A DNA stretch of 6,155 nucleotides from Candidatus Fermentibacterota bacterium. Lineage in GTDB: Bacteria > JAFGKV01. Every line of letters begins with the position of its first letter. Within the stretch, counting starts at the first letter, position 1. The position numbers and the translations under genes were made by a program. Shown in pieces: positions 850 to 6,143 of the stretch. The DNA lies in NCBI GenBank assembly GCA_016928395.1, contig JAFGKV010000251.1, forward strand, positions 1-6,155, written 5' to 3'. Below the pieces are notes generated by a model. It made no database searches and was not told where the DNA came from. It saw nothing but the letters and a program-made list of their open reading frames with translations.

Positions 850-865
850 GCTCATCGGAATGAGC
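850..865 (+). promoter_or_regulatory. Hairpin covering the start codon of the Mrr-like gene
   Basis: GCTCAT (850-855) and ATGAGC (860-865) are exact complements with a CGGA loop, so the ATG lies in the 3' arm. The best purine-rich candidate ribosome site, TTGAGGA (838-844), sits about 15 bases before the ATG, too far for normal spacing. CGGA immediately before the ATG is too close to serve. The hairpin might limit initiation or shorten the effective spacing. The stem is only 6 bp, so this remains a suggestion. Confidence 0.35.
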
Positions 866-1741
866 ATTTGGGAATACAGAGAACAGCCTAGGCTGAACGT
901 AGCTCTGGCGGTGCAAAGAACACAATGCCTTTACTGCAAGTCGAAACTGACCCAGATCGCAGCCCCGACTGACTTCTCCGAGTCTTGGCTGCACATGTGT
1001 ACGGCTTGCGGCTGGTGGAAAGCGGCGTCGATCTACCTCGATGCTGATGTCACGGAGGAAGCCTATAGTCGCGTTCTCGAGGACCCACCGGACCCAGATG
1101 ACAAGCTTTCGCTGAGTTCAATTCGGTCTCGGAAGGGCACGCTCATCGACAACAGCGACATCACAGAAGCACGAGGAATCCGGTATACTTTTGGCGCTAT
1201 CGGGTCCTTGAGGGAATTCGATCTGGCCGATGTTGAGGCGCCAATCAGAGAGGTGCGCTCCTACCTCACGGCGCGCTATCACAGCAGATTCACGGTGCAC
1301 CCACGGCTGTTTGAAGAAACGGTAGCGAGCGTGTTCAAGAGCTTGGGCTTCGAGGTCTTGGTTACCGGGTACGGAAACGATGGGGGGATAGACGTGATTC
1401 TCTCCTGCCCCGGAGGGACCGCGGTGGGCGTTCAAGTCAAGAGGACGAAGAATGCCATAAAGGTCGAGCAGATCAGGAGCCTCGCAGGGGCTCTTCTAGT
1501 CGCTGGGATCACCACGGGTGTGTTCGTAACTACATCGTGCTTCCAGCGGGGTTGTTGCGCTACTGCCAGTCTCGCGGCCATAAGAGGTAAACCCATACAT
1601 CTCATCGATGCGAGACGATTCTACCAAGCTCTAAAGATCGCGCAGAGGTCCGAGGGCTGGTCGTTCGATGATTGTACGGCGCCGTTTGTGATGGCAGAGC
1701 AGCAGTTGCTCCGCGTCAGCCTCTGGACTACAGGTCTGTGA
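860..1741 (+). CDS. Zinc-ribbon plus Mrr-type restriction endonuclease-like protein
   Basis: A 293-residue protein, probably a DNA-cleaving enzyme acting in the cytoplasm. Near the N-terminus are two cysteine pairs, C23-x2-C26 and C47-x2-C50 followed by GWWK, typical of a zinc ribbon that could bind DNA. Residues about 145-260 match the Mrr catalytic domain of the PD-(D/E)XK superfamily: helix FEETVASVFKSLGF with E152, then GYGNDGGIDVIL with catalytic D178, then VGVQVKR with Q192 and K194, followed by an IRSLAGAL helix and a GVFVTTS strand. All expected catalytic residues are present, so the nuclease looks intact. Residues 55-145 are a linker of unknown fold. ATG 860 is the only usual start codon in frame before the stop at 839-841. 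The twin methyltransferase gene follows on the same strand after 129 bases. Mrr-family enzymes often cleave modified DNA, but whether this one needs methylated or unmethylated DNA cannot be read from sequence. Confidence 0.88.
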   Translation: MSIWEYREQPRLNVALAVQRTQCLYCKSKLTQIAAPTDFSESWLHMCTACGWWKAASIYLDADVTEEAYSRVLEDPPDPDDKLSLSSIRSRKGTLIDNSDITEARGIRYTFGAIGSLREFDLADVEAPIREVRSYLTARYHSRFTVHPRLFEETVASVFKSLGFEVLVTGYGNDGGIDVILSCPGGTAVGVQVKRTKNAIKVEQIRSLAGALLVAGITTGVFVTTSCFQRGCCATASLAAIRGKPIHLIDARRFYQALKIAQRSEGWSFDDCTAPFVMAEQQLLRVSLWTTGL

Positions 1742-1870
1742 CAGGGCCAAAGAGCCCCGCGCGATCTACGACCATCCTTACGCGAAAAGAGTTGGACGGC
1801 GTTTCCTGTGAAGATTGCTATTGCGGAAGTTCTGGGCTATTGCTAGATTCCCAGAAATGGTGATCGGCGA
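1742..1870 (+). promoter_or_regulatory. Gap before the methyltransferase gene with a weak candidate promoter
   Basis: A possible sigma-70-type promoter for the methyltransferase gene lies at 1821-1849: TTGCGG (1821-1826), a 17-base spacer, then TAGATT (1844-1849) preceded by TGC, which fits an extended -10. Transcription would start near 1856, leaving a leader of about 15 bases. Each hexamer is only a partial match. A separate promoter would let modification be expressed without the endonuclease, a common arrangement in restriction-modification loci. The start ATG at 1871 has only a weak GGCGA upstream. A short frame reading through this gap and ending at 1863 has no support as a gene. Confidence 0.3.
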
Positions 1871-4714
1871 ATGAAGCAAACGAGTTCCCTTTACGACATC
1901 CAGCTCGGGTTGGGCCTCACGGTTTACGAAGAGAGAGCAGGGTATGGAACAGCGCTCGAGTCTGAGGCCCCCACCTATCCTGAAGTCGAGGACTTGGGCG
2001 ACCTACGACAGAGCGACAAACTGGTCAGAGACCTTAGAAGAATCGACTGGGCATTCACTGAGGACGACACAGACTTCCTGACTCACGACCTTCATCCTTA
2101 CCCCGCTAAATTCATTCCTCAAATACCCGGCCACTTGATAGCGCGGCTGTCACGCCGCGGCGAACTCGTCCTGGACCCCTTCGGTGGGAGTGGGACAGCC
2201 GCCCTTGAAGCCATTCGACTTGGGCGCAGGGCGGTGAGCGTTGACGCCAACGCTGTCGGTTCTCTGATCGGCAAAGTCAAGACATGCAATATCACAAGAG
2301 ACGTGGCAACGGACCTACACGGCATCAGGTGCGTCCTCACAGCACAGTTGCAGGACCTGCCTTCTGATCCGGCACATTTGATGTCGAAGTACAAGGAGTA
2401 CATCCCCGCGATCCCGAATCGAGAGAAATGGTTCCCGGACACATCGTGTGGGGAACTTGGCCTCATACGCTCCGCCGTCATGCAGATGACAACGGAGGCT
2501 GCGAGGAGCATCGGCCTGCTTGCTCTTTCCCGCATCATCCTCAGGGCGTCGTTTCAGGACTCTGAGACGAGATACTCAAGCAGGCCCAAGGAGATCGACC
2601 CAGGCGAAACAATCAAGGTGTACCTGCAGAATCTAGAGGAAATCATCAGGAACATCCTCAAGACCCAGCCTACCATCAGATATGGAGTCGCGCAGTTTGT
2701 CACGGCAGATACGCGCACCCTCGGGGATGACGTGATCCAATCTGAGTCGGTGGACCTTATCGTGACCTCGCCGCCTTATGGAAATGCTATGGACTACCAT
2801 CTCTATCACAGATTTCGGTTGCTTTGGCTCGGCAATGACCCGCGCGCACTGGCCCGAATAGAAATCGGCTCACACCTTCGACATCAGAGAGAATCGAGCG
2901 GTTTCGACGCATACATGCGTGAGATGACAGATTGCCTTGGAGTCATGTTCAGAGTATTGCGCCCAGGGCGCTACGCAGCGCTTGTGGTTGGTGATTCCAT
3001 CTACGAAAACGTGCTACACCACGGAGCAACGGCGTTTGCCGAACGCGCAACCGATGTCGGTTTTCAGACCGTGTGTATCATCGAGCGAGAGATTCACAGA
3101 ACCAAGCGATCCTTCCTCGCTGCAGGCCGACGCGCCACAACGGAGAATATCTTGGTACTGAGAAAGCCGGAGCACGATCTCAACCTCTTGCTAGAAGCCC
3201 CGCCATACAAACTCTGGCCCTATGAGGAGATGCTCAGAACGCGCGAGGCTCGGAGCATCCTACACAAGCAACCACACGCGAACGGACGAGGACTGGAGAT
3301 CGACCTTGATTCTTGGGCAATCTCCGATGCCAGACGACTCGTGTTCACACACCGTCTTTGGCACACAGCAACACTCAGGGAGCCCACATGGCAGGCCATC
3401 CTGGAGAATGGATTCGTTTCTCAACCCTCCGCTAGGAAGGATCCGAAGTATGTCACTCATGGTATTCACGCCTACAAAGGCAAGTTCTACCCGCAGCTTG
3501 CGAAAGCCCTAATCAATCTTGCAGAAACGCGCCCTGGCGCCTTTGTCCTAGACCCCTTCTGCGGCAGTGGCACCACGCTCCTCGAGGGCTACCTCAATGG
3601 CTGTCGTACAGCTGGCTGTGATATGCATCCTCTTGCCGCAAAGATCGCGCGAGCCAAGATCGGCATCCTTGATACAAACCCCGACGTTCTCCGCGAGGCG
3701 GTCGTCACCATACTGCGCAAGATGGAGGGGGCGGAGAACCGTGTTCCAGCAGGTCGCGAACAGTTCGCTCCAGAGTCGGTCGGCGAGATTGAGAAGTGGT
3801 TCCCCGGACCTGTGGCAGACAAGTTGAATTTGGTCCTGAAGGTCATTCGAACAGTCACCGTGGGTGTCATGCAGGATTTCTTCGAGGTGCTGCTTAGCAG
3901 CATCATCCGTGACGTTTCTCAGCAGGATCCCAGTGACCTGCGAATCCGACGCCGGAAGACCCCCATAAAGGACGCCGACGTGTTCGGCCTGTTTGCCAAT
4001 GCACTAGACGCGCAGTATCAGCGAATCGAGAGGTTCTGGTCTGTCCGGGGACATGCGCCGAACAAATTCCACGGATGTAGCGTTGTGGAGGGGGACTCAC
4101 GCAATCCCAAGACATTCGCGCAGATCGGTGCCGGGCCAGGGACTGTGGACCTGATTCTTACGAGCCCACCGTATGCTACTGCACTCCCCTACATTGACAC
4201 AGACCGGCTGTCATTGCTGGTTCTCATGGGCCTCGATGCGAGCAAACGCCGTCCTCTCGAGCAAGGCTTGGTCGGAAGCCGCGAAATCATCACCAGCGAG
4301 AAGCGGCATTGGGAGGGTCGTCTCATGGGGCCCCATGAAGACTCATTGCCCCGGGGAGTGAGGCGCGAGCTCCGTGCCCTGACGGCACGCATCGCAGACT
4401 CAAACGGTGGGTTCCGGCGCAAGAATATGCCGGCCCTCCTGACGAGGTTCTTCTCCGACATGGCCACGATTCTCGGCAATTGCGAACGGGTGTTGAGAGA
4501 CGGTGGGCAAGCGATGATTGTCATTGGCGACAACCGAACCAGCATCGACGATGAAGATGTGCGTATTCCGACGACGGACTGGGTTCAGGAAACAGCACTT
4601 CACATGGGGCTGAAGCTTGTCGAGAGAATCGACATATCGGTAACGACCGAGAACCTAGTCCACATCAGGAATGCTATTACGGAGAATGTTGTCCTGTGGC
4701 TGAAGAAGCGCTGA
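1871..4714 (+). CDS. Fused twin DNA methyltransferase (two amino-methyltransferase domains in tandem)
   Basis: A 947-residue protein expected to transfer methyl groups from S-adenosylmethionine to exocyclic amino groups in DNA (N4-cytosine or N6-adenine). Two domains carry the same motif series. Domain 1 has HPYPAKFIPQIP (H75-P86), SAM-binding DPFGGSGT (102-109), EKWFP (W187) and catalytic TSPPYG (T299-Y303), ending near 435. Domain 2 has HGIHAYKGKFYPQL (530-543), DPFCGSGT (561-568), EKWFP (W643) and TSPPYA (764-768), ending at the C-terminus. Spacings match closely: motif I to WFP is 85 and 82 residues, WFP to TSPPY 112 and 121. After TSPPY both have an LGxxxRVLR-type helix and a V(V/I)GD strand. 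Both catalytic motifs are intact. TSPPY favours N4-cytosine but does not prove it. Motif I precedes motif IV in both halves, unlike the usual beta-class order. Residues about 440-525 form a linker. Two fused domains suit an asymmetric recognition site, one domain per strand, which is inference. The gene follows the Mrr-like nuclease and converges on the PLD nuclease. Confidence 0.92.
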   Translation: MKQTSSLYDIQLGLGLTVYEERAGYGTALESEAPTYPEVEDLGDLRQSDKLVRDLRRIDWAFTEDDTDFLTHDLHPYPAKFIPQIPGHLIARLSRRGELVLDPFGGSGTAALEAIRLGRRAVSVDANAVGSLIGKVKTCNITRDVATDLHGIRCVLTAQLQDLPSDPAHLMSKYKEYIPAIPNREKWFPDTSCGELGLIRSAVMQMTTEAARSIGLLALSRIILRASFQDSETRYSSRPKEIDPGETIKVYLQNLEEIIRNILKTQPTIRYGVAQFVTADTRTLGDDVIQSESVDLIVTSPPYGNAMDYHLYHRFRLLWLGNDPRALARIEIGSHLRHQRESSGFDAYMREMTDCLGVMFRVLRPGRYAALVVGDSIYENVLHHGATAFAERATDVGFQTVCIIEREIHRTKRSFLAAGRRATTENILVLRKPEHDLNLLLEAPPYKLWPYEEMLRTREARSILHKQPHANGRGLEIDLDSWAISDARRLVFTHRLWHTATLREPTWQAILENGFVSQPSARKDPKYVTHGIHAYKGKFYPQLAKALINLAETRPGAFVLDPFCGSGTTLLEGYLNGCRTAGCDMHPLAAKIARAKIGILDTNPDVLREAVVTILRKMEGAENRVPAGREQFAPESVGEIEKWFPGPVADKLNLVLKVIRTVTVGVMQDFFEVLLSSIIRDVSQQDPSDLRIRRRKTPIKDADVFGLFANALDAQYQRIERFWSVRGHAPNKFHGCSVVEGDSRNPKTFAQIGAGPGTVDLILTSPPYATALPYIDTDRLSLLVLMGLDASKRRPLEQGLVGSREIITSEKRHWEGRLMGPHEDSLPRGVRRELRALTARIADSNGGFRRKNMPALLTRFFSDMATILGNCERVLRDGGQAMIVIGDNRTSIDDEDVRIPTTDWVQETALHMGLKLVERIDISVTTENLVHIRNAITENVVLWLKKR

Positions 4715-4720
4715 ACGTGG

Positions 4721-5980
4721 TCACGCGTAGCCGAAACGTCGGTCGCTGTTACGCACGGGTTGCGTGCAGAACGCAATCCACGACCGATACTCCGGTGTAC
4801 CCCTGCGCGCGAGGACGCATTCGTATTCGGCATCCGGTTGAGCGACCCTTGTGATCCGCACGACATCGCCGAGATCACCACCCGCATTCACAAGAGGACG
4901 AACGTAGAAGCGGAAGTCCGAGCTGTTCTCGTACATGTACATCCGTACTGTTTGCGTGACTACATTTCCAGGTTCCTCCACACTCCAGACCCTCCAGTGG
5001 GGCCGCCAATTCCAATACACCCGACCTCGCCCGCCCCGAGGCCCCTCATCGCGGGTGTACTCATTGGGCCAGCCCCAGAACTCCTGCGCGAGCTCCATCG
5101 CCTCCAAAGGAATTCGGGCCTCACCTGGAATGTTGTCCCCTTGCAGTGTCGGCAGCGTCATGTAGAAGGATGCCGGCGCTATTGCGTCACCCCGCCCTTC
5201 ACCCATCGGCTCGGGATGCGCACCCACCGGTCTGCGAGCAGGATGTCGGCGCTGTCGCACTTGCCGCCTACGCTGTCTCACCCCCTCCAGAAGGCCCTCC
5301 AGGATACGTGCAGGAAGTGGTGGCGGATTCTGGATCGGCTCCACTCCGAAAGGCGATTCCAGAGCTTCGGCTCCCCCGGCATCCCGCCGACGCTCCGTCA
5401 CTCCGTCAGCCCTGCTTCTGCGCGCTTCGGCCTCTGTCGGCACGTCACCTCTCGCCACCAAGAGCGCGAGGAACTCCTCCGTGAGCCGATACGCAGTGGC
5501 ACCCCGCGGGTCCAAGAACCGCTGCAACTGTCTTTGAGCTGCCTCATACACCTCGCGATCGGCAGGTAGTTCGTATGCGATTCTCGCGCTGCCCTCGTAG
5601 TTGCCGAAGAACCCGCCCTCGGTGATGTTGTGTGAACCGATAATGATCTCAGCACGATCCGGCCACTCGAAAAGGTAGACTTTCGGATGGAAAGTGTGCC
5701 GGGGTAGCCTGTGCTTGATCACGAACGCCTCAACACCCCACGATAGAATCTCGCGTAGCACCTCTTGGCTTGTCCCGCCCAAGTCGATGCCAACGACAGC
5801 CCGGACCTCGGTGCCCTGACGCCGAAGGTCGACTATGGCGTCTCTGTACCTCAGAGCGGTTTGCAGGCCTACGAATGCCGACACCAAGACTACTCTCCGC
5901 GGCGACGGTTCGGCTTCAAGGATGTCACCGATGATCCGTCCGAGTTGTTCATCGGGTTGCGCAATATACGTAACGTTCAC
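4721..5980 (-). CDS. Phospholipase-D-family restriction endonuclease (NgoFVII/BfiI-like)
   Basis: A 419-residue protein if translation starts at GTG 5980; an in-frame TTG at 6007 would add 9 residues. GTG is preferred because GGTGG lies four bases upstream and the likely -10 box overlaps the TTG. Residues about 5-170 form a PLD nuclease domain: VVLVSAFVG strand, VRAVVGIDLGGTS, then TFHPKVYLF with H98 and K100, IIIGSHNITEGGF with S116 and N118, and NYEGSARI with E129. There is a single HxK motif, so a homodimer sharing one active site would be expected, as in BfiI. Residues about 185-268 are an Arg/Pro-rich linker. Residues 270-419, beginning FYMTLPTLQG and including IPGEARIPLEAMELAQEFWGWP, resemble the C-terminal, probably B3-like DNA-binding part of NgoFVII-type enzymes; this assignment is less sure. 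PLD nucleases of this type cut without a metal ion. The gene converges on the methyltransferase gene with 6 bases between stops, leaving no room for a dedicated terminator. Confidence 0.88.
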   Translation of the reverse strand: MNVTYIAQPDEQLGRIIGDILEAEPSPRRVVLVSAFVGLQTALRYRDAIVDLRRQGTEVRAVVGIDLGGTSQEVLREILSWGVEAFVIKHRLPRHTFHPKVYLFEWPDRAEIIIGSHNITEGGFFGNYEGSARIAYELPADREVYEAAQRQLQRFLDPRGATAYRLTEEFLALLVARGDVPTEAEARRSRADGVTERRRDAGGAEALESPFGVEPIQNPPPLPARILEGLLEGVRQRRRQVRQRRHPARRPVGAHPEPMGEGRGDAIAPASFYMTLPTLQGDNIPGEARIPLEAMELAQEFWGWPNEYTRDEGPRGGRGRVYWNWRPHWRVWSVEEPGNVVTQTVRMYMYENSSDFRFYVRPLVNAGGDLGDVVRITRVAQPDAEYECVLARRGTPEYRSWIAFCTQPVRNSDRRFGYA

Positions 5981-5994
5981 GGTTCCACCAGATA

Positions 5995-6006
5995 TGGTAT
6001 ATACCA
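5995..6006. promoter_or_regulatory. 12-base palindrome overlapping the -10 box, possible operator
   Basis: TGGTATATACCA is a perfect palindrome that covers the whole proposed -10 element. A dimeric repressor bound here would block the PLD nuclease promoter, as controller proteins do in some restriction-modification systems. No controller-type small regulator gene is visible in the window, and a second copy of the site was not seen near the other genes. Confidence 0.35.
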
Positions 6007-6026
6007 AGACACTCGCCGAGGTTCAA
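5998..6026 (-). promoter_or_regulatory. Promoter for the PLD nuclease gene
   Basis: Reading the - strand, TTGAAC (6026-6021) is followed by exactly 17 bases and then TATATA (6003-5998), with TGG directly before it as an extended -10. Each hexamer matches the sigma-70 consensus at 4 of 6 positions. Transcription would begin about 7 bases further, near 5990, giving a leader of roughly 10 bases that contains GGTGG and then GTG at 5980. This geometry places the alternative TTG start (6007-6005) inside the promoter and supports the GTG start. Confidence 0.5.
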
Positions 6027-6068: not shown

Positions 6069-6143
6069 CTTCGCGCGCGCCGGGGGGAACACCTCCCGAA
6101 GACAAGAAGGCAGAAACGACGGCCGCCCGCCTCCGCGACGCTT
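6069..6143 (-). repeat. Right copy of the inverted edge repeat
   Basis: Reverse complement of the left copy: 6092-6120 matches 42-70 exactly over 29 bases, with weaker matches over 6069-6091 (against 71-90) and 6129-6143 (against 10-25). It lies about 40 bases upstream of the PLD nuclease promoter. Together the two copies enclose all three genes, as terminal inverted repeats of a cassette would. The inner stem partner present beside the left copy (108-117) is absent here. Confidence 0.85.

Follow-up and report, generated by a model that had tools for sequence, protein, structure and literature searches.

Genes for an Mrr-type nuclease, a twin DNA methyltransferase (MTase) and a PLD nuclease lie side by side at this locus, and the question is whether they form one three-protein defence system or a conserved pair with an unrelated neighbour. 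The window, i.e. the whole stretch of DNA that was analysed, is one entire 6155-bp contig (C314) of a 4.79-Mb draft genome with 343 contigs.

Organization of the locus

Three long genes, all of them open reading frames, fill positions 860-6007 (Table 1). The preliminary description had claimed three genes with intact catalytic motifs, and this was borne out by open frames, by Pfam matches and by the presence of the motifs in all three. It had however left out that the PLD gene is read from the minus strand and runs towards the MTase gene, the two meeting tail-to-tail. Owing to this opposed direction, the three genes do not constitute one operon. The Mrr-like gene and the MTase gene share one direction with a spacing of only about 130 bp, and their co-transcription is possible. 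GC3 was similar across all three genes (0.65-0.66). As for the end of the cluster, placed previously at 5980, this position approximates the likely PLD start, although the frame itself opens further out: homologues begin at the equivalent of about residue 10 of the 428-aa ORF, which suggests that the true start lies some 10 residues inside it.

Table 1 Features of the 6155-bp window
Feature	Position	Strand	Remarks
Mrr-type PD-(D/E)XK nuclease	860..1741	+	293 aa; Mrr_cat 146-256; CxxC pairs 23-26 and 47-50
Fused twin N6-adenine/N4-cytosine-type DNA methyltransferase (MTase)	1871..4714	+	947 aa; two motif sets
Tail-to-tail junction MTase/PLD	4715..4720		6 bp separating both stop codons
BfiI-like PLD nuclease	4721..6007	-	up to 428 aa; TTG start at 6007; PLD domain, Arg-rich linker, predicted B3-like C-terminal DNA-binding domain

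Positions 1-859 are GC-rich (0.63) and contain a long open frame (1-822), which is probably not a gene. Within the window, sigma-70-like and terminator-like sites were in no excess over shuffled sequences, and no Rfam match was found. The three genes are flanked by an inverted 47-bp repeat (42-87 versus 6074-6120; 94% identity, one gap), the copies of which lie 41 and 35 bp from the contig ends. The repeat was absent from the rest of the 343-contig genome. It could delimit a small mobile unit, or indicate that the assembly broke at a dispersed repeat.

We also considered whether the contig was misplaced in its genome bin, and found no sign of this in composition. Its GC content was 0.58, compared with 0.60-0.65 in six sampled contigs of the same bin (two more read as N), and its tetranucleotide correlation was 0.63-0.68, against 0.60-0.73 within the bin.

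The PLD nuclease

A PLD catalytic domain with HxK and a downstream S/N motif, as expected of BfiI-type enzymes, was found in the PLD protein. PLDc_2 was matched in Pfam (E 9.2e-8), the motifs read HPK (residues 107-109) and GSHN (124-127), and H107, P108, K109, S125 and N127 were invariant across nine aligned sequences. BfiI (2c1l) was the top sequence match (E 3.9e-9), and a phmmer comparison with the BfiI C-domain gave E 4.5e-4. Two further Pfam matches remained below threshold: BfiI_DBD (E 4e-4, 20.7 bits against a cut-off of 25, residues 356-427, last part of the profile only) and RE_NgoFVII (E 0.042). When the AlphaFold model of the protein, which is of moderate confidence (mean pLDDT 73, pTM 0.48), was searched with Foldseek, BfiI was the best fold match (E 8.2e-16) and the isolated recognition B3 domain of BfiI (3zi5) was matched at E 1.1e-6. 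The full-chain TM-score to BfiI was low (0.32), since the domains are arranged differently or their arrangement is uncertain.

The Arg-rich residues 190-275 were examined as a possible frameshift. This was rejected, since alignment with relatives showed a variable inter-domain linker with both domains in one frame.

The twin methyltransferase as a fusion of M1 and M2

The MTase was matched by N6_N4_Mtase in three stretches covering parts of both halves (Pfam, E 6.8e-31). Motif I is present as DPFGGSGT at residue 102 of the chain and again as DPFCGSGT at 561, each followed by TSPPY (at 299 and 764, respectively). Counterparts in which the two methyltransferases are separate were also found. On the Rhizobium anhuiense plasmid pRA_T24_3 (L048), two separate methyltransferase genes overlap by 4 bp and are met by a convergent PLD gene, also with a 4-bp overlap; on the Methylobacterium indicum plasmid pVL1_4 (L049) and in genomes G1199 (L051) and G1615 (L052), M1, M2 and PLD genes are all located on one strand. 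The halves of the window MTase each aligned to separate M1 or M2 proteins in all four of these systems. Since the halves are matched by separate M1 and M2 proteins in unfused systems, the twin METHYLTRANSFERASE of the window can be read as a fused M1-M2. Judged by its sequence, it is the fused M1+M2 of a Type IIS-like PLD system: two complete motif sets occur in one chain, and the halves match the M1 and M2 that accompany a clear BfiI-type enzyme in L052 (BfiI_DBD E 4.3e-70).

BfiI itself is accompanied by two independent methylases acting on opposite strands (PMC4267653), and MhoVII provides an example of a fused M1-M2 Type II methyltransferase, by which both strands of an asymmetric site are methylated (PMC12898733). 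With BfiI/BmrI (Type IIS, ACTGGG; a PLD nuclease with a B3-like domain and two methylases), the window shares the HxK PLD nuclease and probably also the B3-like C-terminus and two encoded methyltransferase activities. It differs in that M1 and M2 are fused in one 947-aa chain, the nuclease gene is convergent and the central linker is longer. The C-terminal domain of the window PLD is only distantly similar to those of BfiI/BmrI, and the recognition site is therefore probably different. With MhoVII and the M.FokI type, the window shares two methyltransferase domains per chain, presumably one for each strand of an asymmetric site. The partner nucleases of that type, going by PMC12898733, do not belong to the PLD family, whereas the partner in the window does.

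Two unfused systems belonging to different phyla, L048 (7271-9275, by annotation) and L051 (2946-4889, called from N-terminal sequence only), have a UvrD-type helicase gene no more than about 0.8 kb away from the PLD gene. This is possibly due to chance.

Relatives of the methyltransferase-PLD pair

A scan with the MTase against one genome per species yielded 11 full-length relatives with 46-61% identity, distributed among several proteobacterial groups, Nitrospirae, Deltaproteobacteria (Myxococcota in the labels of the tree tool), Planctomycetota and Terriglobia. Together with three viral contigs and one relative from a search of the phylum Nitrospirota (L043/L050), this gave 15 fused relatives, ranging over Pseudomonadota, Nitrospirota, Myxococcota, Planctomycetota, Acidobacteriota and viral contigs. 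In every one of them (15/15), the PLD gene was located tail-to-tail with the MTase gene, the junction varying from a 10-bp overlap to a 27-bp gap. No third gene was constant beside the pair among the relatives. The Type IIS-like core of PLD nuclease and twin methyltransferase that had been proposed beforehand is thus supported: all fused relatives retain it, and sets of separate M1, M2 and PLD genes exist as its unfused counterparts.

On viral-classed contigs, the fused MTase and PLD pair was present in L035, L036 and L037; in L035 and L037 it is adjoined by an integrase-like gene, so called by sequence appearance only. The MTase of L036 is identical to that of a Paracoccus genome (L012). Viral scans with the Mrr-like and PLD proteins as queries returned no relatives.

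The Mrr-like gene

Mrr-family enzymes respond to foreign methylation, as established for E. coli Mrr. The protein encoded upstream of the MTase carries the Mrr_cat domain of Mrr-type Type IV nucleases (Pfam, E 1.4e-21) together with its catalytic residues, in the intact motifs DGGIDV (174-179, D178) and VQVKR (191-195, Q192 and K194). It shares the domain and its D...QxK residues with Mrr and Type IV modification-dependent nucleases, and differs from them in the two CxxC pairs of its N-terminal part, a possible zinc ribbon, and in lacking a Pfam match to known sensor domains. A single-sequence AlphaFold model was unusable (mean pLDDT 41).

The most direct alternative to a two-gene system is that of three components, in which the PLD pair is joined by the Mrr-like nuclease as a functional partner. 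The latter might, for instance, cut foreign-methylated phage DNA while the PLD nuclease cuts unmethylated DNA, so that both unmodified and wrongly modified DNA would be attacked from one locus. The co-directional position of the Mrr-like gene 130 bp upstream of the MTase and the similar GC3 of the three genes are consistent with such a coupling. The relatives, however, argue against it. The count of neighbours of homologues, set beforehand as the test of a conserved three-protein module, placed the Mrr-like gene next to the pair in none of the 15 relatives, an outcome named in advance as grounds for rejecting such a module, and tblastn gave no match near any of their loci. The DNA available upstream of the MTase exceeded 2 kb in 12 of these (it was shorter in L006, L011 and L037). 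Among the genes that take the upstream position instead are those for FdhD, a DUF4139 protein, an aminopeptidase, an IS integrase, an IrrE-type peptidase, a patatin and a subtilase.

Nor was a full-length homologue found in any of the 11 whole genomes of the scanned relatives; Mrr-domain matches occurred in only one of them, both away from the pair and covering the nuclease domain only. Plasmid, phage and viral collections contained no full-length homologue. Among 386 genomes across the domain, only the window's own genome, which served as positive control, was recovered at E 1e-15, and 395 genomes of another phylum, a set holding no positive control, gave no match. These counts are to be read with the small sample of relatives in mind and with the ability of tblastn to miss a diverged partner nuclease. 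As the pair is conserved without the Mrr-like gene, the proposed three-protein module was not upheld, and we regard a functional coupling of the three genes as unlikely.

Even less probable is an arrangement of the NgoAVII/CglI kind, in which the PLD-B3 protein would need a partner in order to cut and the Mrr-like protein would take the place of the helicase. R.NgoAVII has the PLD-B3 architecture that is predicted here (fold match 4rct), and CglI and NgoAVII are likewise three-gene systems; however, they combine the PLD-B3 nuclease with a helicase-ATPase, and their methyltransferase is of the C5 type rather than a twin N6/N4 enzyme (PMC4267653). In the window the third gene is a non-conserved Mrr-type nuclease in which Pfam detected no ATPase or helicase domain, and the relatives of the pair have no constant third gene. 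No helicase/ATPase gene of this type was found in the window, the contig ending 148 and 859 bp past the outer genes. That the Mrr-like gene acts as a guard, killing or restricting cells in which methylation has changed, e.g. after loss or alteration of the system, is similarly very improbable: it agrees with the adjacency of the gene and with the response of its family to foreign methylation, but no conserved association with the pair was observed.

Because it is absent in the relatives, the Mrr-like gene appears independent of the pair. On present comparisons it is best read as a locally acquired neighbour, and most likely represents a modification-dependent (Type IV) or orphan defence enzyme.

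Probable exchange of the nuclease

In the PLD tree, two fully supported clades (100/100) were separated, with only 21-27% identity between them. Clade I comprised the window, L003, L010, L005, L007 and L008; all remaining relatives included in the tree fell into clade II. The methyltransferase tree was at odds with this split and requires at least two clade changes on supported branches. The clearest case is represented by L004 and L005, whose methyltransferases are 83% identical and whose nucleases are only 22% identical. The identity of these two methyltransferases is high end to end and nowhere shows the sharp drop expected of an altered target-recognition region. Conversely, L004 and the viral contig L035 share 77% identity in their nucleases and only 44% in their methyltransferases. 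As two PLD clades occur with methyltransferases up to 83% identical, it can be inferred that the nuclease was exchanged under a nearly constant methyltransferase. The simplest reading would be replacement of the convergent nuclease gene under constant specificity.

Proposed model and its implications

We propose, with a probability of roughly 0.8, that the MTase and PLD genes constitute a Type IIS-like restriction-modification system of the BfiI kind, and that the upstream Mrr-like gene is separate and locally acquired. This is supported by the convergent pair in 15/15 fused relatives, by the unfused M1+M2+PLD sets, and by BfiI being the top match in both sequence and fold. Counterpoints are the BfiI_DBD match below cut-off, the moderate PLD model, and the shared direction and short spacing (about 130 bp) of the Mrr-like and MTase genes.

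BfiI acts as a dimer with a single active site and no metal ion (PMC4081073). According to the proposed model, each half of the fused MTase would methylate one strand of an asymmetric site, and the DNA of the cell itself would be protected by methylation of both strands. By analogy to BfiI, the PLD-B3 nuclease would bind the same site via its predicted B3-like domain; acting as a dimer, with a single HxK site that requires no metal ion, it would cut nearby if the site were unmethylated. The Mrr-like nuclease, as its absence in the relatives suggests, would act without need of either protein.

The relatives of the pair form a small family of fused-methyltransferase PLD systems in several phyla and on viral contigs. 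Within it, nucleases 21-27% alike that accompany methyltransferases up to 83% alike offer a natural test of two very different nucleases sharing one site. Finally, the trio seen in one window resolves into a conserved pair and a neighbour that is probably there by chance, a caution against declaring a new system.
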